Source: Struthio camelus
Taxonomy: Eukaryota; Chordata; Aves; Struthioniformes; Struthionidae
Reading direction: 5' to 3'
Length of the DNA: 64,000 nucleotides
Assembly (NCBI RefSeq): GCF_040807025.1
Contig: NC_090968.1
Location: 248,001 to 312,000 of the forward strand
In this document: piece by piece, positions 1 through 64,000 of the stretch
How the letters are laid out: each line of letters begins with the position of its first letter
How positions within the stretch are numbered: position 1 is the first letter of the stretch
Translations under genes and position numbers: made by a program
The notes under the pieces: model-generated
The model's input: only the letters and a program-made list of their open reading frames with translations
Told to the model about the DNA's origin: nothing
Database searches by the model: none

Positions 1-517
1 GGAGAAAGGGCAGGGTGCCCAAGAATGGCAAGGATGCCCACGTTCCCCGGGGGCAGCATGTTGGTTCCTGAGCTTTCTGGCAGCTCCCAGTTCGTAAAGG
101 AAGAGTTGCTCTGAGAACTGTCTGAATGCATGCTCCCCCAGCCTCCTGTGCTCTGCTGATGCGGCTGGTACTGGTGCAAAGAGGGACCTCTTCCTTTCCG
201 GAGGAAGGAGGGAGGCAGATGTCGGCAATTCCTAGGCAGTTCCTGAGCCGGGACATTTTTCAATGTCTTTCCTTCCTCTCTTGCTGAGTTAGGAGGAGAC
301 TGACCCATGACACCTCCCTGTCATGGGAGGGCACCGAGGCCTTCCTGGGTGATAGGCACCAGTGCCTGTGTTCTTTCTTCTCATCCTGAAAGAAGCCTCG
401 TGTGGGTTTCTGTGCCAATGGCTCTTCTGCACCGCTGCCTGCACCATAGTCCGCCCTCCACACTGCCCTCCGCAGTCTTCCCAGGAAGGGCAATGATCTC
501 GGCCTCTCTTTCTGCAG
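1..517 (+). other. Intron of the copy 1 TOPORS-like gene
   Basis: Equals the right half of the 996-bp intron seen in full at 18180-19175. It ends in a pyrimidine tract (GCCTCTCTTTCTGCAG) just before the RING exon. In-frame stops lie immediately upstream, so the RING exon needs this acceptor. I see nothing else in this stretch. Confidence 0.6.
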
Positions 518-1392
518 CGGAGTGCAGCATCAGCAGCTGAGGCACCTGCAACGGATGGCAGCTCCTTACCCTCAGCTCCCCCCAGCCCTCTGCAGCAGAC
601 AACACCAAGACCTGCAGCTCCAGACGCTACGTGTCCCATCTGCCTGGACACCTTGGACAACGTGGCCTACATAAAACCTTGCTTCCATAAGTTTTGCTTT
701 AGTTGTGTGTTCCGGTGGTCGAAAACAAAGGCCGAATGCCCGCTGTGCAAGCAGGCTTTCCGATCAATTCTGCACACAGTGGTGGCAGAAGATGACTACC
801 AGGAGCATGTCATCACCACGAGCTTGCCGCAGCCACACAGTCTGCCCAGCAGCCGCGGCGAAGCTCTGATGATGGGGCAGCTCGAGCAGGAGGAGAAGCC
901 TGGAGAGAGTTGCTGGCTCCTGCCGACCCCCAGGACAGTGACTCCTCGTCAGACAGTTGTGTCCTTGTAGGGTCCTGGAAGCCCTGGGCAGAGGGAAGCC
1001 CTGAATGCATTGTGCTCTCCTCAGACTCAGAGCACTCAGCCGCGGCAGAGGAAAAGGAAGCTGGGCAGAATGAGCAGCCGCTCCATGGGTCCAGCCGGAG
1101 CTGCAGCAAAGCCAGCGGGAGCTGCTTGCCCAGCTCCGCCATGCCGAAGGAAACTGGCTGGAGCTGCCGCAGCTGCTGCCCCACTGCCCCCAGGGAGGAG
1201 ACAGAGCCCCGGCAGGGGCAGATGGAGGATGTGGCTGGTTGCTCTGTGCAGGGCTGCAGCCAGATCCCCTTTGCTCCTGGCAGCGGCAGGCAATGCTCAC
1301 CCGGGAGTCCCCGGCTGCCCAGAAAGAGGAGGGCAGGCAGCCCCGAGGCCTGTACCCAGCCCAGCAAGAGGCAGGCATGGCCTCAGCGTTAG
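518..1392 (+). pseudogene. TOPORS-like: TOPORS-like RING E3 ligase, copy 1, truncated by an 805-bp deletion
   Basis: The large exon starts after the acceptor ending at 517. The C3HC4 RING coded from about 635 is intact (Cys and His ligands all present). After the codons for EHVI the sequence jumps at 815/816 from the point equal to 19473 to that equal to 20279, removing 805 bp. That length is not a multiple of three, so the frame shifts and stops at 968-970, giving about 150 residues. The lost part includes the whole conserved region downstream of the RING. The former 3' coding part remains up to the old stop at 1390-1392 but out of frame. The first exon lies left of the window. A RING-only product is conceivable, but a dead copy is more likely. 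Confidence 0.88.
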
Positions 1393-4300
1393 GAAGGAGA
1401 GAGGAAGATGGCCAGGGAGCAGAGACGAGAGCAGCCAGAGAAGCCTGTGGCAATGGCGGCTAGGTAAGAAGACCGAAAGAAGTGGAAAACGGGCTGGACT
1501 GCTGCCCTCCAAGGGTTGTCTTCAGCGGTACAAGGTCTGGCAGTCAGCTGACTGTGAGTAGTGGCCTCCTTGGGAGAAGGTAGCAATGCTAGGGCAAAGA
1601 CTGGTTCAGGTGTTCTTAATGAGGCGATGGAGGGCTCTCGGGGCAAGCTTGGAGTAGGAGTTGGACTAGACGCTGGCAGATGCAGGGCCCACACGGATGA
1701 GGAAGTCTGTCAGTCCCCCCAGCAGTTATTCTAGGAGATGGCTGTCTGAAAGCACCTTTGGCAGGACACTGCGGGGCCAGGTTTGTATAAAGACCAGTGC
1801 AATCCAGCTGGTTGCCGTGACAAATGCTGAGGAGAGTGAAGGGGTCCCTCGTGACTCACTTGCCTTCTGTCACCCTCTGCTCTCCCTTGGCAGGCAAGGA
1901 AGTGGTGGGTTTTCCGCACAGACCTGAGGTGCACCGAGCCCCTCTCCTTGTGTGTGTGTGGGCCTCCCACCAAAATGCCTGAGCTCCCCTGCAGCTGTTC
2001 CCCAAATGGCCCTGTCTGGGCTGGAGAACGGGGAGGCATAAAACTCCCCAGCATACACTTCTGGGGAGGAACCCTCTCAGCTTCCCCTCTGCTGGAAAAA
2101 TGGCTTGCCTCCGTGTTTCTGCTCCTTTCGCTCTCACCCCACCTGCTCTAGGGGCTTTTAATCTCCTTGCGTGCCTTACTTCTTCCCCTTTGCGTTGTTG
2201 GCGTGCAGTGCTAACCACGGTGTTGGAGCGGGTGCCACCTTCCAGGTAAGAAGCTGGCCCTGGGGTTTTTCACCAGTGCTGCTGCTGGCTAAGGAGCTCG
2301 TCACCTGAACGCACTTAAGGCACCTGGGATGTGAGCTGCTGGAGAGCTGCCAGAGCTCAGGATGCAAGAAGACTGGCTTGAATTGTCTAGCTCTCCTCAG
2401 CTTGGAGGCAGAGCTAGCCCTGCCAGGACATGGCTTCCAGGCTGACAACCCTGCTTTGAAGCTTCTTTGAAGCAGGAGCAAAATCATTTCTGGGAGGTGT
2501 GTCACATTCCGCATGTCCGATGGCTGCTGAAGACCGGGCTGCAGCAGTGGTGAGCGTAGCTGTGGCTGTGGGGGTTGGCAGGGCTGAGCAATGCAGCCTC
2601 TGGCCTCTCTCCCCAGGCCCCCTGCAATGAGGTGAGGAACTGCTCACTGAGGTGAGCCCATCTCCACGCTTGTGCCTCAGGGGGCATGTTATTCCCAGCT
2701 CACAGAGGCCTTCAGCTTTCCCACATGTTAACTTAGGAGTTAACATCTCTGCCTGAAAGCAAACCCTGGGACTGCAACCTTGGCTAGGTTTTGGTAGGAA
2801 CAACGGGAACTCCCAGCTCGATACAAAGGGAGGCACTCCCAGCGCAGCACCCTAAGCCCAGGCTGACGGAGGCAGGCTCTCTTGTGCTCCTGCTTTCTGA
2901 GCCAGGGACTCTGGGGTCCTTGGCTGCACAAAGGCACAGCTCCAGCTGAAGTGGTGCCGGTTAGACTCGCCAACCCAGCAGCCACTGTGTGCTCCGGCTT
3001 CCCTAAAACACAGGCGGCATCTCCCCTTCCTCCTCTCGCAGCTCTTCCAGAGAACACTTGTGCGCAACTAGCTTTCAGGACTGGTCTCTGATGTCCTATG
3101 GCTCCCTGTCAGCGTGAGTCAGAGAGGATTTGGGGCAAACTCCCGTCCTCAGGCTTTTCCCTTAGCCAGCACCAGGCAACACCATGCCGAGATGAGATTT
3201 CCCTCACTTGTCTATCGAGATATATTTCTCTGGAGTCACGAGAGTGATAACAGGAGTGCAGTGAGAAATTAAATAATAACACAAGCTTGTTCTTCCAGGA
3301 AAAAAGTATTGCCTACTCACCCGCAGGATTCCGCAGAGGCGCCAAAACCTCGTCCAGCTGAGATGCTGGGGAAGCTTCACCTACAGGCACACCTGCAATC
3401 AGAGAGGAGATTTGCTTCCCTTCTATACCATGACATACATCTTTTGAGCCAGCATCGGGATTACAGAGGGGGAAAAGAAACGCTTAAAAAGAGACAAAGC
3501 TTGTCCTTGCCAGCAAAAAAAGTCTGACTCCTTACCAGTGGCGTCCTGCAGAGGCTCCCTTACCTCTCCCAGCTGAGCAGCTGGGTACGCAGTGTCCACG
3601 GGCACATCGGTAAGCAGACACGGAGCAGCAGAACTGCGCTGGGCCGACAGTGAACACCCAGGGACTGGCTGAGGCCCAGAGGGGAGAAATGACCGTCCCC
3701 ACACTTGCCTGCCTGCAGTGCGCTGGAGCTGGGAGAGAACCCAGGAGTTTGGACTCCCAGTCAGCCCTTCCCCTGCTCTACGCCAATGACCCCTGCCCTT
3801 CCGCTTCCCACACGTTCCGAGTCCCAGAGCACCTCGCCAGAGCAGGAGAGACTTCCAGTCTCTACCATTTCTCACTGCTGAGGACTTGCCTTTGCAATCT
3901 TGAGATCACGCCTAATTCAAGAAACTTTATTTTGAAGTGCCAAAATTCCTTCTGGAAACAACCACACAAAGCTCTGGAGCCCTCAGGACACATCAGCACA
4001 TTAGCCCCACTGAGCTTCCTTTCTTTTGCTTGAACCAAAAGAACTAACTGCAGCGGCAGGTTATTCTTTCTTAGGCAAAGCTGCAGCACAAGCACCTCAC
4101 CCGTGTTTCTCCCAGTGCCTTATAGGCAGCAGAGGGATGCTGAAGCAGGAGAATAAGGAGCTGGAGAATAAGTTCCATGTTTGCAGAGTGCTCTCCAGTG
4201 GCTCTCCCTCTCCCTGCCACGGGGCTCCTCAGCCCTTCTCTTCACCAGGGAAGCTCAGCTCAGGGGCTGTGTGGTGTCTCGGAAATGCTCGCCCATCTCT

Positions 4301-4611
4301 CACAGACTTTTCAGCACTCTTGCCGGCAACAAGGGACTCACTAGAACAGCAGAGGCGGCGCATCCACAGCAACAGCTCTACACCTCCCCCCTTCCCCACT
4401 CTTGGCACTGAATCGGGAAAGCATCCGAGTTCCTCTGCTCAACAGAGGCAAGGGCAGCCCCCCTCGCAACCTGGCCAAATGGTCCTTCCCAGAGACACGG
4501 CTGGCCGCAGGGGCACCTCCCTCCCAGGGCTCCCCTCCACCTCCACGGCACGATGGAGAACACAGCCTGCAAACGGATCCCACCGCTCCTGCCAAGGCTC
4601 TTTTGAGAATG

Positions 4612-4900
4612 TAGGGTAGTTACAGTGATAGGATGCTGTTAGGATAGCTAGCGTAGAGTTGGTTATCATAGTCTTAGCGTGTAGTTACTTACAGTATTCT
4701 TAGAGCAGTTGGAGTATCCTTAGGTCATTGTAATTTCTCTAAGGGTAGGAGACAGCTAGTCTGCCTGGCTATACTTAGGGCAGTTATTATAGTTATCATA
4801 TAGTTACCATTAGCATTATTACTTATAGTTAGAGTTAGTTAGAGTTACTGTTCGTAGTTATCCTTAGGCCATAGTAATTCTTGCTGGAGGGTAGTTAATG
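4612..4900. repeat. TAG/TTA-rich imperfect repeat tract, copy 1
   Basis: About 290 bp dominated by variants of TAGTTA, TTAGG and GTTAGAG, with clear compositional contrast to the GC-rich DNA on both sides. No exact unit length is visible. It is found in all four units at the same relative place. Confidence 0.6.
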
Positions 4901-7900
4901 TTAGAGGAGAGTATTAGGATGGTTTCAGATAGCTAGCCTGGCAGGAGGCTAGCTCCCCCACTCCCCACCAGCTGGGGCACAGCAAGCTCATGGGCTTGCA
5001 CTTTAGGTGCAGTAGCTAACTCCTAAGAGAGGAACTGTCTGCACAGGCAGGACAAGAAGAAAAAAGCTTAATCCCTACGTTGCAGCCGATAGAGGAAAAT
5101 CGGAGTGCTGGCTGCTTTTTGGAAGAAGGCGTCAGAAACATAATTAACACGAGAGTTCCTCAGCAGGAGGTGATCACAGTGTTACCCTCACAGGGCATGT
5201 CTCCCCACAGCTGCTGCGGCGTTGTTTCCCACACCATCTTCCTGCAGAAGGAAGACCCTTGACTCGCACCCGAAAAACATGCCACTGAAAAGGAATCCTA
5301 GGAGAAAGCAGCAGAAATACGCTTAAGCATCCCAGCTGCCAAGTCTTTCAGGTGACAAAGTTCATCTGAGGAACACCCCATACCTGCCACTTTGGGGGCA
5401 GCATGGTTTTGCCCACCCCCCTCCTGAATGGGGGCAAGACAGGACAACCCAGCAAAACCACATCGCCTTCACTAACAACAGCTTGCAAGCCCCTGAGGAA
5501 AAGCTGCCCCTCAAAACAACTCCTGTTTTAACAGGTCACAGGGTTAAACACCTTCCTCCCCTAAAGACATTACAAAGCCATTGGCTGCCGTCCCTTGCCC
5601 AAGAGGAACTGCACAGCTTCTGCTGGCAAGCAGGTATCAGAAATCCAGGCAGACAACACAGCTCTGCCCTGTGAGCTTCCAGCCCTGATCCCACCCACCA
5701 AACATGGGGGAGCTACAAACCCCCCCGGGCCCTGCCCCGGACACTTCACAGCTACAGAACTGCCCCACTTCTCTCATTTCGGCAAGGCATCTGTTACTGT
5801 TCAGGAGTTCCTCTCACCCGTGTGAAATGACACGGGTTTGTCTCTGGAGACACAATCTGCCTACTTGCCCAGAAAAACCCCACAGCCGCTTCCATTCAGT
5901 CACTGTGGAATTTCCAAATGAATGCAAAACAGAGGGAGAACTTTCCTCTCTCTCGGTTTCCCAGCCCACTTGCCCTCTCAGCTGGTACATCAAGAACAGG
6001 ACGAGATGCCTGTGGGCTTTCTCTAAGAGCTTAGGCTCAGTAGTACAGATTAAGGCCTCATGAGGAGGAGGTCCAGTTCCCTTTTCCGGGCGGAACAACC
6101 CACTCCGGAACAGAGATGTCTTTGTAACGCCTCCTTTGTAGCGCCGCCTTCTGATGTCTTTGCGCCTTCCCTTCTTCCGGCAGAGAGTGGCTGCTTAAAA
6201 CAAAACCAAAGCAAAAAAGCACCCCACTCATTCATCTCCCTGTTTTGGGCCAAAAGAGCTGCAGAAGGATCAAAGGACACCGAATGGCTGCGCAATAAAG
6301 CATCAGAGGATATTCACTGCAGGGGAAGTAAAGCATCTAGGGGGCCAAAACACCCAAACCTTAACTTTACATGCACAAATGACAGGCTGTGACCTAGTGG
6401 TTATTGGCCAGGGAGACCCAGCCAGTCAAGCAGAGCGCTCCATGAAAGCACGTGCTCCTTGCTTTGCCGAGGTCAAAAGGAGGAAAGCAAATGCAAGAAG
6501 AAAAGGGACAGAGAATCAGGCAAGGAACCGCATTAGGCCCTTCCACAGATTCACGGTGTGCCTGAGTGGGTGCCCCTCTGCAAGCACAAATACAGGAAAG
6601 GCCCTTGGGCTACTGCCTCTGGCAGGGGAAGCTCCCAGGCCACAGCCTGCTGGAAGAATGCTCGGAGGAAAAAAAAAGAAAACATCAGTATATAGTGCCC
6701 TCTTCTGATCCTCCTTCCTAGACAGCTGCTGTTCAACACTGCCCAAGAGAGTGCCAGTGTGAACCAACAGCTCGTTTGACCCAGTGGACCCCGCTGCTCC
6801 TGCTCTGGAAAGCTGTTGGTGTAATCGTCTTCCCCACCTCGGCATCAATGGCAAAGACATCTAAGGAAGCCAGGTTAGCTAGAGATTTGTGTTACGCCAG
6901 CTAACACATGCAGAAATGCTTGCTAACGCTGCAGAGCTGCAATAATTTGGAAGCTCTAACAGTGGGAGGTGCCAGGAGGAGAGTTACAAAGCTCTTGGAA
7001 GAACGCAATGCCCTCCGTGGACAGCACGCTTCCGCTTCAGCTGTCAGGCTGCTACTAGGAAGCCCCTCCCCGACAGTCTGCCCTCAGGTCAAAAGCCTAG
7101 CTTTACTGATTGCTCTCTAAAGGCAGTTCCTTTGTGCCAGGGGCCACCACGTACTTCACAGCAAAGCTTTGGCTCTGAATATACTGGGGAGTTGGCACAA
7201 CCCAGGCATCCAAGACCCTGCAAGGAGGGCTCATGCTACGGCCTGACATAGGCTGGGAGCAGCACCATGAGGCTAAAGGGAGAGCAACCCATACGCCCCA
7301 TCCTCAAGGACAAAAAGGATGAGGTCTGCTATCCTTGCAGGTTTTTAAGGAACTGCTTGTTAACACCACATAAGACCCAAGTGCTTTGGAATTAAGTAAA
7401 TCCTTGCTCAGGAACCAAAACAACCAATAGGCATGGCAGGGATTGAACTGCCAAGCCGGAAGGTCCAAATACATCGGCTCACTCAAGCAGCCTTGGAAGC
7501 GGATGCAGCAGCAGCCGCACTGCTGAGGCTCTTGTGCATCCCGGTGCAATTCAGGGCATGCCCGCATCGTGACGGAGGAAGGATGAGCACTCTCACTGTC
7601 GGTTAGGTAACTGCCTTGCTCATAAGCATGTGAATTAATGAATCATCGAGTTAACAAATCAGTGAACTAGCTAATTAAGTAACTACAGAATTAATGACTT
7701 AGGCTAGTCTGCACAGAAAGGATTCACTCTTTCTTTGCTTTTGGGTTTTTTTTTCTTTTTTACCTAATAAGCTCATAAGACTAAAGTTGGTTTCACAAAG
7801 TACGCTGTCCTGTAAATTTGAGAGATCACAACGTGACACACAGATCCGCCTTTTCCTGGGAGAGACCTACAACCAACACTCAGGGTAGCCCATGCTCATT

Positions 7901-8698
7901 GTGCTTTAAAGGCACCCAAGCCAGTATGGTGATAAGAGACTCTGTACCTGACCAGATCATTTCGCAGTGGGCCCCAAGCATCACCACATTGATGTCTGCA
8001 CTGACAGATGGGAAAGTGTTCGGAGAAAAACCACGAGTCAGCTTTCAAGCACCATTAGATGTATGGGGCTCTCAGGTTATGAGGGACAACGCAGACAGAT
8101 TCCTCATACGCACTGGCTGAGTAGGAAGCGTCAACTCGGACAAAGAGGCCTTCTGACTATCATGTGAAAGTTGACGAGGACTGGAGCACGGCATCTGCTG
8201 GGGCTTTAACTGCAAGACTCCACACTGGACCAAGTTAGTCATTTTGCAAGAAGGGATGCTGCTCCTGCCTCACAAGCAGAGCTTGTCATTTTGTACCACC
8301 CAACAGCCTTTCCTCAGATTCCAGGATCTACCCCAAAATAATTACAAAACTCATAGCTTTGCATAACAATGGCACAGACATGTGAAAAAAGTACTTGTCA
8401 ACTACCACGTAAATAACAAACAGTGAAAAGAGGAAAAAAACCCAGCTCATGGGGACAATAGCAAATGTGTGCACATGACATTCTGACAAACTGCTGGCTA
8501 GAGAAGAAAATTGTTTGCCAGCAATCCAATTACACCTGACCTCCCTGCAGGGGACAATTCAGGACACCTGCAACAGTTCCATGCCTTCAGCTTTCTAGAG
8601 AAGCTCCAGAGAAGACACGAACCTGATCTAAACAAGGGAACTTGGCTTGTCCCGAAAAGGTGCAATTTGCTTACTTGCTTTGGAAGCTCTGCCATCAT

Positions 8699-8721
8699 AA
8701 ACAAACAAACAAACAAACAAA
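8699..8721. repeat. (AAAC)n microsatellite, copy 1
   Basis: About five and a half tandem AAAC repeats, followed shortly by a run of nine C. The tract is the same length in copies 1-3. Confidence 0.9.
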
Positions 8722-9360
8722 ATACCATGCACACCCCCCCCAAACAAACAGTTACAAAGGGATTATTTAAGAGTCTTGCCTAAAGTCTGCATTAATGTAA
8801 GACCAGGGCACCCAAAGGTGCACACAGAATTTGTCACTCACCATTACTGCAAACAGCCAGACACTACAAAGGTCAGCCCGAGGAGAAGAGGGTTAAGTAA
8901 CAATACCCACTCTTGACCAGAGAGACTGTTGTTCTGTCCTTCTTTACCAAACACTTGGTGCGTTAGAAGCCGTTTGATCACACAGGGCAAGACCCATTTT
9001 CTCCTCGTGATTCAGAAGGGAACAGGGGAGTCTTGGCTTTCCTAAAGCAGCCATAGCCAGGAAACACTGATGCACAGAAGGCAGAAGCAAGGAAACGTGA
9101 ACCCCTGCTTAGCTAGCTCCGTCTCCAGCAGCAATGCACACCTCAAGCAGAGGGTTTTGCTCTGTCTTTACCATTTGGGTTTAAGCAAGGGCCTGGGCGA
9201 AAGGAATTAAGGACATTTGTGTCGAGGAACATTGGAAACAAATGGAAGAAAACGGGCCCTAACCTGTAAAGGGTTTGAAAAAGTTCTTGATGCAAAGGAG
9301 AGCAACGGGCTTGAGCTGGCTTCAACCCACGTATTCCTTCCTGGCGACTGGGGAGGCCCA

Positions 9361-9548
9361 GCGTTGTGACAGTGAGCCCATGATAGTAATGGGTAAAGGG
9401 GATCACATTGGTGTTGTGATGGAACTGTATAATGCAACTGCTAGAGTTTGTGAAGTGTACACTTGCATTGTGGTTTCAGACTGTTGCTGTATCGCTCTGC
9501 TAAATCAGACATCCCATGTAGCATCAAATACCTCGAAAGGAAACTGTT
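9361..9548 (+). repeat. Dispersed repeat, first member of a diverged pair, copy 1
   Basis: Aligns by eye with 15031-15235 of the same unit. Shared landmarks in the same order are GCGTTGTGAC at the left end, CACATTGGT followed by TTGTGAT, TGCTAAATCA, an ACATCA-like block and AAGAAACT/GGAAACT at the right end. Between them the two are well diverged. Probably an interspersed element fragment (LTR or LINE piece); the family is not recognised. Confidence 0.55.
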
Positions 9549-9639
9549 ATGGGGATGGGAGCTCTCACAGCTCCAGGCCTTTCTGCCCCTGTTGCGCTAC
9601 AACACTGGCTGAAAGCACCACTCCGTTTCCCCCGGAGGG

Positions 9640-9983
9640 TGGCAAACAGCTCCCGCGCCCAGCTCAGGTTTCGGGGGCCAGTTCCCTTCCAGCGACTCCC
9701 ACAGGGGAGCCCAGCAGAGCGGGGCCCAGCGGCAGCAGCCTTTCCTGGCGGAGGCTCCGCTGGAGGACAACTCCCACTGCCCCGGGGCCGGCCTCACGCT
9801 GCTGGGGCGAGGGCAGGAGCCGGAGCCGCCCGCGAGGCCGCGTGTGGAGAGAGCAGAGAGCTCGGAGCTGTGACGTGCGGGTCTGCGGGGGACCGGCCTC
9901 AGGCGGCGGTGGGGAGGGCAGTGGCACCTGGCGCTGCAGGGCCCCGGGCCTGGGCTGCTGAAGAGAAGGAAGGGGAGGCCCAG
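9640..9983 (+). promoter_or_regulatory. CpG-rich promoter-like segment ending in a splice donor, copy 1
   Basis: A dense run of CpG in otherwise CpG-poor surroundings. It contains a TGACGT CRE half-site near 9871 and ends at CAG followed by GTAATGAG (donor at 9984). It could be a CpG-island promoter and first exon for a + strand transcript; the only supported + strand exon downstream is the TOPORS-like exon of the next unit, about 9 kb away. A 1-bp difference near 9951 against copies 2 and 3 changes the frame, so this is more likely untranslated than coding. Confidence 0.35.
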
Positions 9984-10037
9984 GTAATGAGAAGCTCCTG
10001 TGTGTCTTCGGCCTTGCGGCTGAGGAAGTAAAAGGGG

Positions 10038-10343
10038 GTGATTGTGGTGGTGCTGATGAGGGGCCTGGAGGACATCCCCTGTCTGGAGATGGTCAGCAAG
10101 AGCATGCTGGTGCTGGCCAAAGTGGTGCATGAGCTGAAGGGCAAGGACCTGGGCTCCGCTTTCAGGGACACTGCCAAGTGCAAAGACCATGGCGGGGCAC
10201 GGTGGCCCTCACGAGTCCACAACGTCTGCTCGATTCACACGCCGTCTCCAGGCTCGGACGCCTTTGCCTGCTCAACACCCTGGGACAAGACAACCCTGGG
10301 CCTTGGAAAGTACACCGAGTACACCAAAGGAAGGAAACCCTGA
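10038..10343 (+). other. Coding-like fragment of unknown origin, copy 1
   Basis: The first 150 bp or so read as an open frame with G or C at nearly every third position (VIVVVLMRGLEDIPCLEM and on to about LGSAFRDTAKCKD), a pattern expected of real coding sequence. The tail to 10343 looks random. No start codon context or acceptor is convincing. It may be an exon remnant of a captured gene. Family not recognised. Confidence 0.25.
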
Positions 10344-10555
10344 ACCCCCTCCCCCCCAACAACCACCTCAAATCACCCCCTGCCCACAAAGGCCACCATG
10401 TGAAAAGACTCTGGGGCTCCAAGGGCCTCTCTCTGCGTGCGCACAAAGCACACTCGACCACACCAAAGTGGTCTCCGAGGACGTCTTATTCAGCGGGCAC
10501 CCAGCAGGCTCCACGAGGCCGAGACCTACGGAGACGCGGGGCTGGGCGACGGCTG

Positions 10556-12998: not shown

Positions 12999-13615
12999 GG
13001 CTTGGCTGTGCGCTGGGAGGCAGCACGGTGTGAGGGGGCTACAGCCCGTGTGCTCGGGCACACAGGGACGCTCACGTGGTCACTACCCTTCCCGGCATAT
13101 ACACACATAAACACTCGTGCACACTTACAGACCCATATTGCGTGTGCTCCAAACGATGTCCTCGTGCACAGCTGGAAGCAGCCACCCTGCTCCCCCACAG
13201 TCCACGTGTGCCAGGCACACATGTACAGCCCTGGCCCACGGGCAGGCACACTCGGGCTGTGGCGCTGGCAGTTCCCCGAGTCCCACCGCCCCCACCGCCC
13301 GGCCCGACCCGGTCCAGCCCATGCTGGACGTCCCCCACGCAGCTCACCTCCACTCTGCAAGCACGCCCCGTGGGAGCCCAGCCGCCTCTGCCAGGCAGGG
13401 CACGAGGAGGCACAGGCAGCGGTGCCTCTGGCGAGCGGTACCAAGGTCTGCTGCCAGCCCCAGAGCACGAGCCCAGCACCAGCCCCAAAAGCCTTGCTCG
13501 ACCCCCCGCGCCTCACACCCGAGCTTGGCACGAGTCTGACCACCAGGCAGCTGGGCGAGACTCTGCAGCCGCCCGAGGCAATGCAGCAGCGCTGCGCTGT
13601 CACAAGAGGTTGGGG

Positions 13616-13641
13616 CCGTCACAAAGGGCCGTCACAAAGGG
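13616..13641 (-). promoter_or_regulatory. Tandem CRE-like motifs upstream of TMCO5-like, copy 1
   Basis: Two adjacent 13-bp copies of CCGTCACAAAGGG (minus strand TTTGTGACGG), about 620 bp upstream of the start codon and about 270 bp upstream of the predicted 5' untranslated exon donor. TGACG is the CREB/CREM half-site, and CREM drives many spermatid genes. Function is inferred from position and sequence only. Confidence 0.3.
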
Positions 13642-49280: not shown

Positions 49281-49494
49281 ACCCCCTCCCCCCCCCAACA
49301 ACCACCTCAAATCACCCCCTGCCCACAAAGGCCACCATGTGAAAAGACTCTGGGGCTCCAAGGGCCTCTCTCTGCGTGCGCACAAAGCACACTCGACCAC
49401 ACCAAAGTGGTCTCCGAGGACGTCTTATTCAGCGGGCACCCAGCAGGCTCCACGAGGCCGAGACCTACGGAGACGCGGGGCTGGGCGACGGCTG

Positions 49495-51937: not shown

Positions 51938-52555
51938 GGCTTGGGCTGTGCGCTGGGAGGCAGCACGGTGTGAGGGGGCTACAGCCCGTGTGCTCGGGCA
52001 CACAGGGACGCTCACGTGGTCACTACCCTTCCCGGCATATACACACATAAACACTCGTGCACACTTACAGACCCATATTGCGTGTGCTCCAAACGATGTC
52101 CTCGTGCACAGCTGGAAGCAGCCACCCTGCTCCCCCACAGTCCACGTGTGCCAGGCACACATGTACAGCCCTGGCCCACGGGCAGGCACACTCGGGCTGT
52201 GGCGCTGGCAGTTCCCCGAGTCCCACCGCCCCCACCGCCCGGCCCGACCCGGTCCAGCCCGTGCTGGACGTCCCCCACGCAGCTCACCTCCACTCTGCAA
52301 GCACGCCCCGTGGGAGCCCAGCCGCCTCTGCCAGGCAGGGCACGAGGAGGCACAGGCAGCGGTGCCTCTGGCGAGCGGTACCAAGGTCTGCTGCCAGCCC
52401 CAGAGCACGAGCCCAGCACCAGCCCCAAAAGCCTTGCTCGACCCCCCGCGCCTCACACCCGAGCTTGGCACGAGTCTGACCACCAGGCAGCTGGGCGAGA
52501 CTCTGCAGCCGCCCGAGGCAATGCAGCAGCGCTGCGCTGTCACAAGAGGTTGGGG

Positions 52556-52581
52556 CCGTCACAAAGGGCCGTCACAAAGGG
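52556..52581 (-). promoter_or_regulatory. Tandem CRE-like motifs upstream of TMCO5-like, copy 3
   Basis: Same 13-bp tandem pair as at 33086-33111. Confidence 0.3.
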
Positions 52582-53970
52582 CCCCCGAGAGCGCTGGCCA
52601 GGGGTGGCCAGTGCCCCCCGGCAGGCACCCGCCTCTTGTGCTCCCCCAGCCTCCTCCCCGGGCACGGAGGCCTAAAGCCCAGGGCTGGAGATGGGAGGAG
52701 AAAGCCCTGGGGAAGCCCTTCATCCCCACAGCCTCTGCTGCAAGATGCCAGCTGGCCTGGCCCAAAAGGGCTCTGCGCTAGAGCCCAACCACTGGGGACC
52801 CTGTGGCAGCAGGGGCAGACAGGCAGACGCCTTTCCCAATGCATGGCAGACTCATTTCCCGCCATGGGGATGGTGGCCTTGCTTGGCCCACAGCTCCCAA
52901 GCCGTTCCTCTGAAACAGAGGCCAGCCTCCAGTCCCCTTTGCACGGAGAGCAAGCCAGCTTTCTGTGCAACAGTTGTGGCCAGTCACTCCCTGTGTCCTC
53001 TGAGCCGGCCTGCCTTGTTGGGGTCTAGCGGTCAGTGGCACAGGGCGCCGGCAGGAGCCAGCAGGGCAGCAGGGACAGGCGTCGCACCTGGAGCCCACAC
53101 GTTGCCCAGAGCACAGCCCGGTAGGGGCATGCTTAGACTCATGTCATGGCTCTTCACTAATGGGCGGGTATCAGATCTACTGGCAGAATGATGAACACTA
53201 ACAGAAGCGCAGATCTACTAGCAGAATTGCTAACAAGGCCATCTCAAATACAAGGAGATCCCATAGGGGCCCCTGCACTGTGTGCTTCCCAGGGAGATAG
53301 CTTGGAGTGGGCCATAGCTGATGCATCGCATGGCGGGTATGCTGCCTCTCTCTCACATCTTGCATGCAGATCAGAGACACTGCAGGTTCAGTTCTCGGAC
53401 GTGCTCCCCAACCAACAGCATACCGAGAAAGAGCACGCCAACACCCACTCCCCCTATCAGCTAGCTGAGAGAGAGGAGCTTCCCGCTGATGCCAGCTACC
53501 CACAGCTATTGTCTCGCGGGAAGCTCAGGGGCTGTGCTCCAGCGGGCAGACCCCTCACGCGCTATAATCACCCTTTTCGCAGTGTTGTCCTGGAGCGATC
53601 AGTCCAGCCTTGTTGATCCGCTGCGCTTTGGGCCTGGGAATCTGCGGGGGACAGATCACTAAGCCTCAGGGAGACAAGCTGTGCCTGTGCTGTTTGGCAG
53701 CCACCCTTAGTTTTCATGCTTAACGCCCGAGCTCTCCTTCCTCCTAGCCGTAAGCTTATTGAAGCCAGCCTGGACACCAGTTTGTCCACAGCACAGGCTC
53801 AGGTGACAGGTATTTTTTTGCAGTAAGCGGTCATTCCTGCGAGAGCCTACTGTGACTGACCAACAACGCCTACAATGGGAGAAGGCTCAGAGGGCAAGGT
53901 GCCCCATGAATCGCAAGGACAGTGTAGGATGCAGCTCACTAACCGCAGCTGTTGCACACAGACCTGACCA

Positions 53971-54175
53971 GCGTTGTGACGCTGAGCGTGTCTGAGACTG
54001 GAAATGGCAACCACATTGGTATTGTGATTGGTATTGTGCTTGAACTGTCTAGCTAGATGTTGTTCACACTTGTACTGTGATACACTTGAATTGTGCTCTC
54101 AGGGCATTGCTGAATCATTGTGCTAAATCAACACCCCCTGTAACATCAGATTCCCTCAAAAGAAACTTTTGAGGC
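53971..54175 (+). repeat. Dispersed repeat, second member of a diverged pair, copy 3
   Basis: Paired with 48297-48484. Confidence 0.55.
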
Positions 54176-54180
54176 CTGTG

Positions 54181-54376
54181 AGGGTGACGGAGCACTGGCA
54201 GAGGTTGCCCGGAGAGCTTGTGGAGTCTCCTTCGCTGGAGATTTTCAAAACCGGCCTGGACGCGGTCCTGGGCAACATGCTCTAGAGGACCCGGCTTGAG
54301 CAGGGGGGTTGGACTAGATGATCTCCAGAGGTCCCTTCCAGGCTTGGCCATTGCGTGCTTCTGTGTGATTCTGTGA
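54181..54376 (+). mobile_element. CR1 LINE 3' fragment A, copy 3
   Basis: Same insertion as in the other units. Confidence 0.92.
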
Positions 54377-54550
54377 ACCTGACAGCCACTGCAGGCAAGG
54401 CTGACACTGATTATCACACGGCCAGCTGATGCTCTGGCAGGGTTTGGGTCTCATAGTTGCTCTATCAGAGCAAGCAGGCGCTTGCACGCGTCTTGGCCCA
54501 CCGCTGTCCCTTCAGAAGTTCAAAGGTGTTGGTGTGTGCAGGGCGGATTC

Positions 54551-54576
54551 CCCTCCTCCCTCCCTCCCTCCCTCCA
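54551..54576. repeat. (CCCT)n microsatellite, copy 3
   Basis: Same tract and length as in copies 1 and 2. Confidence 0.85.
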
Positions 54577-55670
54577 CCTCCACTGATTACAGTGGGAGCT
54601 TAGACAAGGAGCTGGCATGCAGACAGCCATTTTGTGCTCACCAAAACTGGGGACAGGGGAATCCCCCCTCCTGAGAGTGTGTGGAGTGCACGGGATGGAA
54701 CGGAATCCCGCTTCATGCCAGGGCCTTCTCAATGTATTGTTTACCTCCTCTAAATCAGTCCCTGAAGCATGAGGAAAGTAACTCCCTTCTTGGCCCTGTC
54801 TAGGAGTCCTGTCTTCTCATGAGATGGGAATAGGGCCTTCTAGCGGGACATTTCCGGCTGTAAGGGTGAGAGCAGCAAAGCAACAACCGTGTGCTTGCAA
54901 GGAGGAATAAGCGAGCGAGAAGTCTGTTTCTCTGTGTGTCAGCTAAGGGCAGGCTGGTGTGTCCTGGGGGCAGCAGGAGCTGCCTGAGGAGCCGCAGGGC
55001 AGGGACTCTGGCGCTGTCCTGGAGGGAGGCGCTGGCACGAGGGAGCTGCAGGCCGTCTGGGGGCAGGGAATCTCCTTGACACAAGAACAAGGGGCACAGA
55101 GTGTCACTGTCCTCTGCTTCCTTGTGTCCCTGGGGCCAGGGACAGTTTGGAAGCTGACGAGGCAGCTGACACCCTGCCCCTACCCACCCCTTCCCCCGTG
55201 CTGCTGTGCTTTCAAGGGGGCTTGGGCTGTGGTGTGAGTGCTACTGTGCCGCAGAAACACGGGCCTCGACCCCTCGCTGCAGCCCCCACTGCCCTCCTGC
55301 CCCTGCCCTGCCGCCCTGCCGTCCTCCCCACGCTGCCCTGCCTCCTGACTCCTCTCCCCACACCGCAGGGCCCGGCAGTGCAGCAGGCGCAGGCACAGCC
55401 CCGCAGCTGCTGCCTGGTCCCCGGCCCTCCCCGCCTCCCTCCACACCAGGGCTCCAGCCCCAGCCAGGCAGCAGGTCCGGCCTCTCCCCCCAGCTCCTGG
55501 CCTGGCTCCTCCCGCACTCCCACCCCCTGGCAGGGAGCTGGAGCTGCCCTGGTCCCGGGCAACTGGCCAGCACCAGGGCTGGCATAGGGCCCGGGTGGAC
55601 AGGCAGTGCGGGGGGGCAGTGGGGCAGGGCGAGCAGCCTCCCTCAGGGCCCCACGGCTGGGCCAGGAGGG

Positions 55671-56177
55671 ATGAGGCCATGCGGCCAGCTGGGCTCCAGC
55701 TGCTGCTTTGATGTCAGCTCCATGGAGGGACCGTTGGGGTTTGCTCCCTTTGCAGGGGAATGGCTGGAGGCGGAGACCTTGCCGGGGCCTGGCCCAGACC
55801 GGGGCAGTGCGCTACTGATCAAATTGAAGGACGCAGCCCCCTTTTCCTCCACCAAAATGATCCACAGACTATTAGGGCACGTGCGTTTAATCCACAGTAC
55901 TCCTTATGGGACCGAAGGCAAAAGAAATGTGCTGTCCGTTCTTCTAGGTGAAAAAACGACGTTGGTTTGTGTCGCCATCTTTGCCCTTCTAGCTTCCAGG
56001 ACTGTTAAAACAGCAGTGAATTTTGTGGTGGGAACAAAATTGAGAAAGGGTTTGTTGAAACGGCTTAAGAGAAAACCTGAAACAATTTCTGATTTTGTTA
56101 CCTATAGGCCACAAAGATTATGTTACTCTTTTGCTATTCCCGAGGGGAAGGCATTTACAGCCACAGCTGAAAAGTGA
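55671..56177 (+). other. Unexplained 168-codon open frame, copy 3
   Basis: Counterpart of 16731-17237. Confidence 0.2.
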
Positions 56178-56346
56178 GCTTAGGTTGTCCCAGTTGGGTC
56201 AGTCATTTTTCTCAACTGCTATTGTTTCTCTGTCTCTACTGCTGGGAGGCAACTCTCTGGACCGACTGAACTCAGTTATGCCTCTAGGATCTTTGGCTTG
56301 AGCCGGCATGAGGTGCTGCCATGCTGTGGTGGCAGAAAGAAATGCT

Positions 56347-56480
56347 AGAGAGGCTGTGGAGTCTCCCTCACTGGAGGTATTCAAAACCCAACAGGGCCCA
56401 GCCCTGAGCAACCTGCTCTAGCTGACCCTGACCATCTCCAGAGGTCCCTTCCACCCTCCGCCATTCCGTGGTTCCGTGAC
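56347..56480 (+). mobile_element. CR1 LINE 3' fragment B, copy 3
   Basis: Same insertion as in the other units, with the CCCAGCC variant shared with copy 1. Confidence 0.88.
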
Positions 56481-57113
56481 CCTGCAGTTGTTGATATTCA
56501 ACTCTCAGAACAAGCCTGAGTTCTACCGGACGGAGGTGACGCCGCACTGCAAGCTCAAAAGCTTCCTGGTCTTGGGAGGTGCACAGACAGTGTATTCAGA
56601 GTGAGCAAGCAGGTAGATCTTCCTTTAAAAAGCAGAACCACTCAGAATTCACTGAGCTCAAGGGGAGGTCCTTGCCACCTCCCTCTGGTCTGCAGGAAAC
56701 ACATCTGGCTGCCCTTAGACAGTTCTCGGCCGTCCTGGATATCCCACCTCAGCTATTCATGCCTCAGCTAGGCATTACCTCCCCCCACTCCCCAGGAGCC
56801 CTCTCCTCCAGGCTTCTCCTCCTTCTTCCTAAGTGCTGGCTAATTCCACAGATTCATGCCTTGCTTCTGCCTCCCTTTATGGTACCTACGATGACTTCTC
56901 TGAAGTTCTGGGGCCGCCTTTATACAGCCGCAGTTACCAAGCCACGTGCAGGATTTTCCCCTAACTGCAGCCTGTTCCCTTTACAGCCACATACAGTCGT
57001 GTGCTCTACAGGCCCTCAAGCTGACAGCGCGCCAGAGAGAGCGCACCTGAACCCTTGGAGGAGGTGAGGCACGTTTGGCTCCCCCACCCGCACGGCCCCC
57101 AGCAGAGGAGCCC

Positions 57114-59783
57114 ATGGAGGTAGGTGCCACCCACCCTCGCCCCTCACCCCACGAGCGGCAACACAGGCAGAGGGAAGGGGCTTGCTCTTCTTGCGCTGAG
57201 AGGGGCCATCGCACTGCCGCCAACGCCAAAAGGTTCGTCACCTCTCCACCAATCCTTTGAAAAGGGTGAGGGTCAGAGCTGCCAGGGGCAGGGCAGGGCT
57301 TGTGGACTTCTGCTGCAATTTGGCTGGGCGGCAGGGCACATACTCCTGCTGGGCTCACTTGGCTGACAGGCATGCTGTGCATCTGTGGCCAGTGCCGTGT
57401 GTGTAGCAAGAGGCTGCAGGGGTCTCCAGGAGTGCTGAGAGACCTCGTTGCCTCTTCCTCGGAGTGCACTTGCAGCTGTGGTGAGCTGCACTTGGAACTA
57501 TGCTGCAGGCTGGGCTGTGCAAGGAAGCAGAGGTGGTCAGTGGGGTTTTGGGAAGTGCTGAGTCCCAAGCAGCAAGGGCATGCTTTTGAAGAGGGCAAGG
57601 AGAAAGGGCAGGGTGCCCAAGAATGGCAAGGATGTCCACGTTCCCCGGGGGCAGCATGTTGGTTCCTGAGCTTTCTGGCAGCTCCCAGTTCGTAAAGGAA
57701 GAGTTGCTCTGAGAACTGTCTGAATGCATGCTCCCCCAGCCTCCTGTGCTCTGCTGATGCGGCTGGTACTGGTGCAAAGAGGGACCTCTTCCTTTCCGGA
57801 GGAAGGAGGGAGGCAGATGTCGGCAATTCCTAGGCAGTTCCTGAGCCGGGACATTTTTCAATGTCTTTCCTTCCTCTCTTGCTGAGTTAGGAGGAGACTG
57901 ACCCATGACACCTCCCTGTCATGGGAGGGCACCGAGGCCTTCCTGGGTGATAGGCACCAGTGCCTGTGTTCTTTCTTCTCATCCTGAAAGCAGCCTCGTG
58001 TGGGTTTCTGTGCCAATGGCTCTTCTGCACCGCTGCCTGCACCATAGTCCGCCCTCCACACTGCCCTCCGCAGTCTTCCCAGGAAGGGCAATGATCTCGG
58101 CCTCTCTTTCTGCAGCGGAGTGCAGCATCAGCAGCTGAGGCACCTGCAACGGATGGCAGCTCCTTACCCTCAGCTCCCCCCAGCCCTCTGCAGCAGACAA
58201 CACCAAGACCTGCAGCTCCAGACGCTACGTGTCCCATCTGCCTGGACACCTTGGACAACGTGGCCTACATAAAACCTTGCTTCCATAAGTTTTGCTTTAG
58301 TTGTGTGTTCCGGTGGTCGAAAACAAAGGCCGAATGCCCGCTGTGCAAGCAGGCTTTCCGATCAATTCTGCACACAGTGGTGGCAGAAGATGACTACCAG
58401 GAGCATGTCATCAGGCCCCCCGAAGATGGTTCTGTTGCCAGCCATCAGCAACGGAGAGCTCCTCACCGCCCTGCCATCCGGAGGCGCCGTCACCCTGCAG
58501 CTCACCCGCAGCAGCCTTCCCCTTCTCCTCAGATGCGACCCTCTCCGCAGAACAGCAGCAGGCTGGAGGGAACCCGGAGGCACACCAGGCAGAGGCAGAG
58601 AGAGGGAGGGCTGCTGGAGCCACGCCAGAGGCTGTCCCCACAGAGGCAGGCCAGGGCTGACAGGAGACCTCAGGGGCATGCGGCAGCGACGGAGGAGGAG
58701 ACGCTGAACTTCCGCCGCTCTCTGTACCGCACAGGGATGCGCGTGCAAAGGGCTCCCGATGGCGGCCACCCCCAGGACATCTCGGCAGACTTCTTCTGCC
58801 GCAGCCCGGCCAGCATTCAGAGACTGCTGCCCTGGCTGCAGCGGGAACTGAGAGTCCACCAGACATTGCTAACTGTCACGGAGCTCATTGTCCTGACAAA
58901 CCTGAGGAGGTACGACCTGGACAGTCAGGCCTTTGCTGAGGACTTAGAGCTGCTTCTGCTGAGTCGCACCGAGCAGTTCCTCCACGAGCTCATCAGCTTT
59001 GCCCGCTGCTCGTGCAGCATGGAGACCTACGACCAGCAGGCCATGTATGGCTACCGTGCTCCCAGCCGGCACGAAGGAAGCCCCTCAGCCTCATTGAGCC
59101 TGGCAGCTGCTGCAGGGACGGCCCGGACTCCTGTGCCAGCCCAGAGCCCATCCCGAGCTAGTAGCCCTGGGCTCACGGAGCTTCCTGGCCCCTCGTACGC
59201 CATCCCCCACGAGCTTGCCGCAGCCACACAGTCTGCCCAGCAGCCGCGGCGAAGCTCTGATGATGGGGCAGCTCGAGCAGGAGGAGAAGCCTGGAGAGAG
59301 TTGCTGGCTCCTGCCGACCCCCAGGACAGTGACTCCTCGTCAGACAGTTGTGTCCTTGTAGGGTCCTGGAAGCCCTGGGCAGAGGGAAGCCCTGAATGCA
59401 TTGTGCTCTCCTCAGACTCAGAGCACTCAGCCGCGGCAGAGGAAAAGGAAGCTGGGCAGAATGAGCAGCCGCTCCATGGGTCCAGCCGGAGCTGCAGCAA
59501 AGCCAGCGGGAGCTGCTTGCCCAGCTCCGCCATGCCGAAGGAAACTGGCTGGAGCTGCCGCAGCTGCTGCCCCACTGCCCCCAGGGAGGAGACAGAGCCC
59601 CGGCAGGGGCAGGTGGAGGATGTGGCTGGTTGCTCTGTGCAGGGCTGCAGCCAGATCCCCTTTGCTCCTGGCAGCGGCAGGCAATGCTCACCCGGGAGTC
59701 CCCGGCTGCCCAGAAAGAGGAGGGCAGGCAGCCCCGAGGCCTGTACCCAGCCCAGCAAGAGGCAGGCATGGCCTCAGCGTTAG
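57114..59783 (+). CDS. TOPORS-like: TOPORS-like RING E3 ligase, copy 4 (557 aa, 4-residue deletion)
   Basis: Predicted exons 57114-57119 and 58116-59783. The RING is intact. A 12-bp in-frame deletion near 58858 removes four residues (LFGV, about 250-253) that the other full copies have; human TOPORS has LFGA at the same place, so a conserved spot of the post-RING region is hit. The deleted block is flanked by GAGTCC direct repeats, which suggests replication slippage. It also has Arg for Gln in the QPRQSSDDG stretch, a variant whose DNA matches copy 1. The reading frame is otherwise complete, so the gene may still be expressed with altered function. Confidence 0.88.
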
Positions 59784-62700
59784 GAAGGAGAGAGGAAGAT
59801 GGCCAGGAAGCAGAGACGAGAGCAGCCAGAGAAGCCTGTGGCAATGGCGGCTAGGTAAGAAGACCGAAAGAAGTGGAAAACGGGCTGGACTGCTGCCCTC
59901 CAAGGGTTGTCTTCAGCGGTACAAGGTCTGGCAGTCAGCTGACTGTGAGTAGTGGCCTCCTTGGGAGAAGGTAGCAATGCTAGGGCAAAGACTGGTTCAG
60001 GTGTTCTTAATGAGGCGATGGAGGGCTCTCGGGGCAAGCTTGGAGTAGGAGTTGGACTAGACGCTGGCAGATGCAGGGCCCACACGGATGAGGAAGTCTG
60101 TCAGTCCCCCCAGCAGTTATTCTAGGAGATGGCTGTCTGAAAGCACCTTTGGCAGGACACTGCGGGGCCAGGTTTGTATAAAGACCAGTGCAATCCAGCT
60201 GGTTGCCGTGACAAATGCTGAGGAGAGTGAAGGGGTCCCTCGTGACTCACTTGCCTTCTGTCACCCTCTGCGCTCCCTTGGCAGGCAAGGAAGTGGTGGG
60301 TTTTCCGCACAGACCTGAGGTGCACCGAGCCCCTCTCCTTGTGTGTGTGTGGGCCTCCCACCAAAATGCCTGAGCTCCCCTGCAGCTGTTCCCCAAATGG
60401 CCCTGTCTGGGCTGGAGAACGGGGAGGCATAAAACTCCCCAGCATACACTTCTGGGGAGGAACCCTCTCAGCTTCCCCTCTGCTGGAAAAGTGGCTTGCC
60501 TCCGTGTTTCTGCTCCTTTCGCTCTCACCCCACCTGCTCTAGGGGCTTTTAATCTCCTTGCGTGCCTTACTTCTTCCCCTTTGCGTTGTTGGCGTGCAGT
60601 GCTAACCACGGTGTTGGAGCGGGTGCCACCTTCCAGGTAAGAAGCTGGCCCTGGGGTTTTTCACCAGTGCTGCTGCTGGCTAAGGAGCTCGTCACCTGAA
60701 CGCACTTAAGGCACCTGGGATGTGAGCTGCTGGAGAGCTGCCAGAGCTCAGGATGCAAGAAGACTGGCTTGAATTGTCTAGCTCTCCTCAGCTTGGAGGC
60801 AGAGCTAGCCCTGCCAGGACATGGCTTCCAGGCTGACAACCCTGCTTTGAAGCTTCTTTGAAGCAGGAGCAAAATCATTTCTGGGAGGTGTGTCACATTC
60901 CGCATGTCCGATGGCTGCTGAGGACCGGGCTGCAGCAGTGGTGAGCGTAGCTGTGGCTGTGGGGGTTGGCAGGGCTGAGCAATGCAGCCTCTGGCCTCTC
61001 TCCCCAGGCCCCCTGCAATGAGGTGAGGAACTGCTCACTGAGGTGAGCCCATCTCCATGCTTGTGCCTCAGGGGGCATGTTATTCCCAGCTCACAGAGGC
61101 CTTCAGCTTTCCCACATGTTAACTTAGGAGTTAACATCTCTGCCTGAAAGCAAACCCTGGGACTGCAACCTTGGCTAGGTTTTGGTAGGAACAACGGGAA
61201 CTCCCAGCTCGATACAAAGGGAGGCACTCCCAGCGCAGCACCCTAAGCCCAGGCTGACGGAGGCAGGCTCTCTTGTGCTCCTGCTTTCTGAGCCAGGGAC
61301 TCTGGGGTCCTTGGCTGCACAAAGGCACAGCTCCAGCTGAAGTGGTGCCGGTTAGACTCGCCAACCCAGCAGCCACTGTGTGCTCCGGCTTCCCTAAAAC
61401 ACAGGCGGCATCTCCCCTTCCTCCTCTCGCAGCTCTTCCAGAGAACACTTGTGCGCAACTAGCTTTCAGGACTGGTCTCTGATGTCCTATGGCTCCCTGT
61501 CAGCGTGAGTCAGAGAGGATTTGGGGCAAACTCCCGTCCTCAGGCTTTTCCCTTAGCCAGCACCAGGCAACACCATGCCGAGATGAGATTTCCCTCACTT
61601 GTCTATCGAGATATATTTCTCTGGAGTCACGAGAGTGATAACAGGAGTGCAGTGAGAAATTAAATAATAACACAAGCTTGTTCTTCCAGGAAAAAAGTAT
61701 TGCCTACTCACCCGCAGGATTCCGCAGAGGCGCCAAAACCTCGTCCAGCTGAGATGCTGGGGAAGCTTCACCTACAGGCACACCTGCAATCAGAGAGGAG
61801 ATTTGCTTCCCTTCTATACCATGACATACGTCTTTTGAGCCAGCATCGGGATTACAGAGGGGGAAAAGAAACGCTTAAAAAGAGACAAAGCTTGTCCTTG
61901 CCAGCAAAAAAAGTCTGACTCCTTACCAGTGGCGTCCTGCAGAGGCTCCCTTACCTCTCCCAGCTGAGCAGCTGGGTACGCAGTGTCCACGGGCACATCG
62001 GTAAGCAGACACGGAGCAGCAGAACTGCGCTGGGCCGACAGTGAACACCCAGGGACTGGCTGAGGCCCAGAGGGGAGACATGACCGTCCCCACACTTGCC
62101 TGCCTGCAGTGCGCTGGAGCTGGGAGAGAACCCAGGAGTTTGGACTCCCAGTCAGCCCTTCCCCTGCTCTACGCCAATGACCCCTGCCCTTCCGCTTCCC
62201 ACACGTTCCGAGTCCCAGAGCACCTCGCCAGAGCAGGAGAGACTTCCAGTCTCTACCATTTCTCACTGCTGAGGACTTGCCTTTGCAATCTTGAGATCAC
62301 GCCTAATTCAAGAAACTTTATTTTGAAGTGCCAAAATTCCTTCTGGAAACAACCACACAAAGCTCTGGAGCCCTCAGGACACATCAGCACATTAGCCCCA
62401 CTGAGCTTCCTTTCTTTTGCTTGAACCAAAAGAACTAACTGCAGCGGCAGGTTATTCTTTCTTAGGCAAAGCTGCAGCACAAGCACCTCACCCGTGTTTC
62501 TCCCAGTGCCTTATAGGCAGCAGAGGGATGCTGAAGCAGGAGAATAAGGAGCTGGAGAATAAGTTCCATGTTTGCAGAGTGCTCTCCAGTGGCTCTCCCT
62601 CTCCCTGCCACGGGGCTCCTCAGCCCTTCTCTTCACCAGGGAAGCTCAGCTCAGGGGCTGTGTGGTGTCTCGTAAATGCTCGCCCATCTCTCACAGACTT

Positions 62701-64000
62701 TTCAGCACTCTTGCCGGCAACAAGGGACTCACTAGAACAGCAGAGGCGGCGCATCCACAGCAACAGCTCTACACCTCCCCCCTTCCCCACTCTTGGCACT
62801 GAATCGGGAAAGCATCCGAGTTCCTCTGCTCAACAGAGGCAAGGGCAGCCCCTCTCGCAACCTGGCCAAATGGTCCTTCCCAGAGACACGGCTGGCCGCA
62901 GGGGCACCTCCCTCCCAGGGCTCCCCTCCACCTCCACGGCACGATGGAGAACACAGCCTGCAAACGGATCCCACCGCTCCTGCCAAGGCTCTTTTGAGAA
63001 TGTAGGGTAGTTACAGTGATAGGATGCTGTTAGGATAGCTAGCGTAGAGTTGGTTATCATAGTCTTAGCGTGTAGTTACTTACAGTATTCTTAGAGCAGT
63101 TGGAGTATCCTTAGGTCATTGTAATTTCTCTAAGGGTAGGAGACAGCTAGTCTGCCTGGCTATACTTAGGGCAGTTATTATAGTTATCATATAGTTACCA
63201 TTAGCATTATTACTTATAGTTAGAGTTAGTTAGAGTTACTGTTCGTAGTTATCCTTAGGCCATAGTAATTCTTGCTGGAGGGTAGTTAATGTTAGAGGAG
63301 AGTATTAGGATGGTTTCAGATAGCTAGCCTGGCAGGAGGCTAGCTCCCCCACTCCCCACCAGCTGGGGCACAGCAAGCTCATGGGCTTGCACTTTAGGTG
63401 CAGTAGCTAACTCCTAAGAGAGGAACTGTCTGCACAGGCAGGACAAGAAGCAAAAAGCTTAATCCCTACGTTGCAGCCGATAGAGGAAAATCGGAGTGCT
63501 GGCTGCTTTTTGGAAGAAGGCGTCAGAAACATAATTAACACGAGAGTTCCTCAGCAGGAGGTGATCACAGTGTTACCCTCACAGGGCATGTCTCCCCACA
63601 GCTGCTGCGGCGTTGTTTCCCACACCATCTTCCTGCAGAAGGAAGACCCTTGACTCGCACCCGAAAAACATGCCACTGAAAAGGAATCCTAGGAGAAAGC
63701 AGCAGAAATACGCTTAAGCATCCCAGCTGCCAAGTCTTTCAGGTGACAAAGTTCATCTGAGGAACACCCCATACCTGCCACTTTGGGGGCAGCATGGTTT
63801 TGCCCACCCCCCTCCTGAATGGGGGCAAGACAGGACAACCCAGCAAAACCACATCGCCTTCACTAACAACAGCTTGCAAGCCCCTGAGGAAAAGCTGCCC
63901 CTCAAAACAACTCCTGTTTTAACAGGTCACAGGGTTAAACACCTTCCTCCCCTAAAGACATTACAAAGCCATTGGCTGCCGTCCCTTGCCCAAGAGGAAC
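59784..64000. other. Stretch without a recognised gene, copy 4 (to window end)
   Basis: Left part of the unexplained region of the unit, including the donor after ATGGCGGC at 59855, the 37-nt exon candidate at 60600-60636 and the TAG/TTA tract. Private changes include CTGCGCTCCC near 60269 and AAGCAAAAAG near 63450. Confidence 0.5.
63003..63291. repeat. TAG/TTA-rich imperfect repeat tract, copy 4
   Basis: Same tract as in the other units, ending in the copy-1-type GTTAGAGG. Confidence 0.6.

Follow-up and report, generated by a model that had tools for sequence, protein, structure and literature searches.

A tandem array of a 19.47-kb unit carrying Topors-like and TMCO5-related reading frames in the ostrich genome

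The systems closest to the locus reported here have been described in chicken. Chicken dot chromosomes carry multicopy genes, which are testis-biased on 7 of the 10, and HINT1W on the W chromosome lies in a tandem unit of 5,648 bp that is present in 52 copies and has a G+C content of 53.6%, possibly as a result of GC-biased gene conversion in its authors' view (PMC9974502). Assembling such gene-bearing arrays is difficult, and the number of copies in them may change quickly. Two gene families described in mammals also bear on the locus. Human TOPORS acts as a SUMO-targeted ubiquitin ligase by means of its RING and its SIMs, of which four prospective ones are named (PMC11402782), and mouse TMCO5 is a protein of the spermatid manchette (PMC6687282).

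We analysed a 64-kb stretch of ostrich DNA, called the window hereafter. Like the chicken dot and HINT1W amplicons, the ostrich locus is gene-bearing DNA in high copy; the HINT1W and ostrich units are both arranged in tandem, and the avian-amplicon feature of a gene-bearing tandem unit with highly alike copies was found in the window. It differs from the chicken amplicons in bearing other genes, two per 19.47-kb unit. The G+C content of the window is 57.5%. The ostrich array is a further case of the recently expanded gene arrays already known from chicken chromosomes. Among open-licence PMC papers, none was found on the ostrich two-gene array, none that pairs TMCO5 with Topors, and none that combines a Topors-like gene with tandem arrangement and birds.

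Structure of the array and divergence of its copies

The window consists of end-to-end, direct head-to-tail copies of one 19,470-bp unit (64,000/19,470 = 3.29), designated A to D (Table 1). When the window was compared with itself, shared 24-mers recurred at offsets of 19,470 (26,121 pairs) and 38,940 (6,819 pairs), and across the deleted copy A at offsets of 18,658, 38,128 and 57,598 (744 pairs each). Self-BLAST aligned positions 20279-64000 with 816-44543 at 99.85% identity, and positions 1-815 with 18659-19473, 38129-38943 and 57599-58413. From the coverage by 24-mers and self-BLAST, every base of the window falls within one of the copies. The original prediction, which had proposed such a self-comparison, described a 19.47-kb unit in tandem at a spacing of 19,470 bp (18,658 bp across the first copy), at least 3.3 copies, and nothing but the array in the window. 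The two methods agree on the stacked direct copies and on this spacing, the count within the 64-kb window is 3.29 units, and self-BLAST places every base in a direct copy, which bears out the predicted figures. Tandem Repeats Finder, which takes periods of up to 500, returned 0 rows in the window.

Table 1. Positions of the unit copies and of their coding features in the window
Feature	Position	Strand	Remarks
Copy A	1..18658	+	18,658 bp; 805-bp deletion and five 1-2-base indels relative to B
Copy B	18659..38128	+	19,470 bp
Copy C	38129..57598	+	19,470 bp; 6 substitutions relative to B
Copy D	57599..64000	+	Ends at window edge; in-frame loss of 12 bp, with a GAGTC repeat on either side
Topors-like exon, copy A	518..1392	+	RING kept; 805-bp deletion, then frame shift; broken
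Topors-like coding exon, copy B	19176..20855	+	Open from 19155 to a TAG stop; CTGCAG at 19170-19175 resembles a splice acceptor
Topors-like coding exon, copy C	38646..40325	+	Open
Topors-like coding exon, copy D	58116..59783	+	Lacks four codons, LFGV
Alternative last exon of public ostrich model P0002	21664..21768	+	Encodes its C-terminal tail; tblastn 94% over 35 aa
TMCO5-related gene, copy A	10556..12998	-	Nine open exons; two substitutions relative to B (S to L, T to M)
TMCO5-related gene, copy B	30025..32467	-	Nine exons, 298 aa, GT-AG introns
TMCO5-related gene, copy C	49495..51937	-	Nine exons; protein identical to that of B

The shorter length of copy A is due to the 805-bp deletion, which follows base 815, together with the five small indels, which amount to 7 bases in total. 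Only one breakpoint is possible for the large deletion, which is therefore without microhomology.

Substitutions between copies number 6 in 19,470 for B and C, 29 and 27 in 18,658 for A against B and C, respectively, 13 in 5,609 for A and D, and 10 and 11 in 6,402 for D against B and C, giving a range of 0.03-0.23% (99.77-99.97% identity). The 35 substitutions comprise 27 transitions and 8 transversions, and 19 of the 35 are located at a CpG. Differences so rich in transitions and CpG sites make the copies look real and young. Bird genomes change at about 1-2 substitutions per site per billion years, a rate that would place the split between B and C, to an order of magnitude, 0.1 million years ago. 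The stretch present in all four copies contains 19 biallelic sites, with the variant in A only (9), in A and D (5), in D only (4) or in C only (1). One tree, joining B with C and A with D, fits 19 of the 19, and the number of incompatible sites is 0. The closest pair is B and C, which are adjacent and 0.03% apart, and A and D share alleles against B and C. Such a site pattern would be expected from recent unequal exchange, not from random assembly error. As incompatible sites are lacking, gene conversion as such is not demonstrated.

These differences also bear on whether the array could be an assembly artefact, with fewer true units and with false copies produced by the assembler or by the mixing of two haplotypes. 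The mere 6 differences between B and C are near what two alleles could show, and four of the five small indels that separate A from B sit in single-base runs; these four, one of which is common to D, could be sequencing errors. On the other side, the window contains three successive passages from unit to unit (A/B, B/C and C/D) between unlike neighbours, A and D bear different deletions, the substitutions have the transition and CpG bias described above, and a public ostrich protein cluster related to the unit (that of P0002, see below) has 21 members, which may include isoforms. Because the differences between the copies look natural, we regard misassembly as improbable.

The two genes of the unit

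Gene 1 is an open frame of 566 codons (19155-20855 in copy B) that would encode a protein of about 560 residues. After the acceptor-like CTGCAG it reads R-SAASAAE, and the TOPORS record of Odontophorus begins with SAAKE. The frame contains a C3HC4 RING, which was matched by Pfam RING models above the cut-off, and the eight Cys/His ligands of the RING are invariant in a 38-row alignment of 37 of the 120 listed proteins (see below) and the window. The Pfam family PF26084, which from the hit list appears to be the TOPORS central domain, is annotated (precomputed) for the relatives P0001-P0003; it was not among the matches in the local Pfam scan of gene 1. In the structural model, residues 201-320 are predicted to be helical, with ten-residue pLDDT means of 74-96; the RING is poorly modelled (ten-residue means of about 53-75), and the whole-model mean is 54.9. 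The residues LFGV lost in copy D (255-258) would fall at the end of a helix and the turn to the next one in this predicted central domain. A fold search with the model gave 58 matches at E 10 and 0 at E 0.001, the best being a RING1B complex at E 0.61.

Comparison with TOPORS suggests that gene 1 has three features in common with it: a RING, a helical central domain, and a SIM-like block, CVLVGSWKPWAEGSPECIVLSSDSE, which aligns with CVIVGYVKPLAERTPELVELSSDSE of bird TOPORS and is the one such block aligned. It is unlike TOPORS in its length of about 560 residues and in stopping ahead of the RS-rich and lysine-rich tail. The frame ends at residue 566, before the RS-rich C-terminal part, and the rhea-like protein P0001 has the same end. 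Since the RS tail is missing, we filed gene 1 as a shortened TOPORS paralogue and not as TOPORS itself. No in-frame ATG precedes the RING in the open frame, the first one being codon 147, after the RING. A search for an upstream exon within 8 kb at phase 0 found 0 candidates with a donor score of at least 6/7, and a search within 14.2 kb at phases 0 and 1 found 14, all scoring 5 and none convincing, with one ATGGGT at 9389. With no ATG ahead of the RING and no convincing start exon, the designation of the frame as a gene rests on its long-term conservation.

A protein search with gene 1 gave 127 matches, of which the best 120 were listed. Among the matches listed, the best named one by sequence is P0002, 'E3 ubiquitin-protein ligase Topors-like, partial [Struthio camelus]' (99% identity over 61% of the query), the representative of the 21-member cluster mentioned above, and the next is Rhea pennata P0003 (75% identity over 73% of the query), with a cluster of 13 members; cluster sizes may include isoforms and are a mere hint of copy number. 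The rhea-like P0001 is 97% identical to P0003 over 418 aa. Ostrich and rhea both belong to the Palaeognathae. The tail of P0002 is non-homologous and is encoded inside the unit (Table 1), on which ground the window is assigned to ostrich. Within the first 341 residues, P0002 and copy B show two differences (T to M and R to H), and C and D have the residues of B. That P0002 differs where B, C and D agree points to at least one further copy or allele.

Bird TOPORS rows among the matches listed are 39-47% identical to gene 1. A tree of 24 of the 120 proteins and the window placed the ostrich and rhea sequences and a long-branched kiwi protein with bird TOPORS at a support of 94/84, under the threshold of the tool. 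The first tree, of 34 of the 120 proteins, gave the same placement at 83/65, with kiwi and duck proteins joining on long branches. Joining the ostrich and rhea sequences with a reptile TOPORS-like group of about 555-594 aa, which was named for the AU test after the first tree, was not rejected (p-AU 0.179), so that the paralogue could belong with either group. This separate TOPORS-like paralogue without an RS tail is common to turtles, alligator, lizards and snakes (P0057, P0058, P0060, P0061, P0062, P0067 and P0068).

Gene 2 is open in 3 of the 3 copies that the window holds in full. It scored 20.1 bits (E 4e-4) against the Pfam TMCO5 family (PF14992), below the cut-off of 32.2 bits, with residues 23-297 aligned to positions 4-280 of the 280 in the model; the score against TMEM191C is weaker, at 17.1 bits. 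Its translation, read by eye, appears to have a long coiled-coil-like part followed by a hydrophobic C-terminal segment, in which it would resemble mouse TMCO5. It is unlike TMCO5 in its score below the family cut-off and in having named sequence relatives only in emu: at E 0.001 the matches were two emu proteins, one 79% identical across 85% of the query and the other 65% identical across 33% of it. The emu relatives themselves scored 23.7 bits (P0121) and gave no score (P0122) against PF14992, for the same cut-off. When gene 2 and its emu relative were used as a profile, the search brought in a single short fragment, P0123, but again nothing named TMCO5. The emu proteins P0121 and P0122 are named golgin A6-like 10 and LOC135324870, and emu may have a small cluster too. 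For gene 2, an additional exon of 100 bp lying between exons 8 and 9 was considered and rejected, for it breaks the frame.

The original prediction also stated that each unit co-amplifies a TOPORS-like and a TMCO5-like gene. The unit does carry both, and the second label can be kept only as a distant resemblance (20.1 against 32.2 bits). Two intact genes are not present in each copy, as the Topors-like frame of A is shifted and that of D lacks four codons.

Conservation and amplification of the two frames

Gene 1 and rhea-like P0001 align without gaps and are identical at 392 of 548 residues. Identity amounts to 32/35 in the SIM block, 43/49 in the RING and 105/126 in the central domain; elsewhere it is 67/107 and 58/90 in the between-domain stretches and 69/116 at the C-terminus. 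Neutral decay to 72% identity was simulated 500 times for gene 1; the frame acquired 7.9 stops on average, and the number of stop-free runs was 0. For gene 2 against its emu relative, the mean was 3.7 stops, and 9 of 500 runs were stop-free. The simulation used one transition bias, without indels and without a CpG effect. Because the frames are open against this neutral simulation, selection probably kept both over long times, and the sequence comparisons suggest that it probably maintained them across ratite evolution. Inside the array, the substitutions that fall in coding exons are protein-altering in 4 of 4 cases, of which one lies behind the frame shift of copy A; there is thus no sign of recent purifying selection among the copies, and four are too few to judge.

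On balance, we consider it somewhat more probable than its opposite that the locus is an avian amplicon in which unequal exchange has multiplied two genes together and kept the copies homogeneous, with a germline context as the likeliest. The 19.47-kb two-gene block would have been multiplied head to tail inside the ostrich amplicon, and its copies would be kept alike by unequal crossing-over, perhaps with gene conversion, between sister chromatids or homologues. The size of the array would change in one-unit steps by misaligned exchange, occasional broken copies such as A could be tolerated because their neighbours are intact, and the dose of the two products would be raised together. Judging from their families, the product of gene 1 would, like TOPORS, recognise SUMO-modified proteins and act as a RING ubiquitin ligase, minus the RS tail, and that of gene 2 would be a tail-anchored membrane protein with a coiled coil, akin to TMCO5/TMEM191. 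By analogy with the testis-expressed amplicons of chicken and with TMCO5 in mouse spermatids, testis or germline use of both genes seems likeliest.

The broken Topors-like gene of copy A, the four codons missing from D, the failure to find a start codon for gene 1 and the protein-altering nature of all four coding substitutions would also fit a passive, satellite-like expansion, in which unequal exchange multiplied a GC-rich chromosome segment and carried the genes along as passengers, most of them decaying. We hold this to be unlikely, though still to be reckoned with, since both frames have stayed open over the ostrich-rhea and ostrich-emu distances where the neutral simulation seldom or never left them so, B and C have open coding exons for both genes, and gene 2 reads through in each of the three copies that the window includes completely.

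A selfish or sex-chromosome conflict amplicon, in which more copies of a ligase and a spermatid-type protein bias transmission, would suit the types of gene involved, namely a SUMO-targeted ligase (PMC11402782) and a distant relative of a spermatid protein (PMC6687282), and the testis bias of amplified genes on 7 of 10 chicken dot chromosomes (PMC9974502); we consider it very improbable. Hardly more probable is a ratite germline amplicon whose shortened ligase and spermatid-type membrane protein, amplified as a pair, take part in a transmission arms race. In that case they would promote or suppress drive, whether meiotic or of the sex chromosomes, and individuals would differ in how many intact units they have. 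Should both genes be expressed in the germline, comparing ostrich with rhea would allow a test of repeated amplification of the same genes in deep bird lineages, and of the role of a TOPORS-like ligase without the RS tail.

Other content of the unit

Copy B has 123 stop-to-stop frames that reach 75 aa or more. The search for a third gene covered 85 + 5 of them, none of which matched Pfam at E 0.01; the remaining 33 overlap the span of genes 1 and 2 and were mostly outside the Pfam scan. A Pfam scan of seven frames from several copies at E 0.1 matched nothing but RING families in the case of gene 1 and, below threshold, the Apg6 coiled coil in the case of gene 2. Neither an Rfam match nor a tRNA was found in the 64-kb window.

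An open frame of 335 codons at 35700-36707 (+) is present in all three full copies and has no Pfam match. The segments 34742-34895 and 36878-37008, which have counterparts at the corresponding positions of the other full copies, are related to each other (69% alike over 154 columns) and presumably resemble the 3' end of bird CR1 elements. A 91-bp stretch occurs twice per unit, at 28924-29014 and 34611-34700, with 76% identity, and the two are perhaps LTR remnants. At positions 22652-23082, about 215 bp are duplicated in tandem; this duplication is old and imperfect, its halves being 66% alike.
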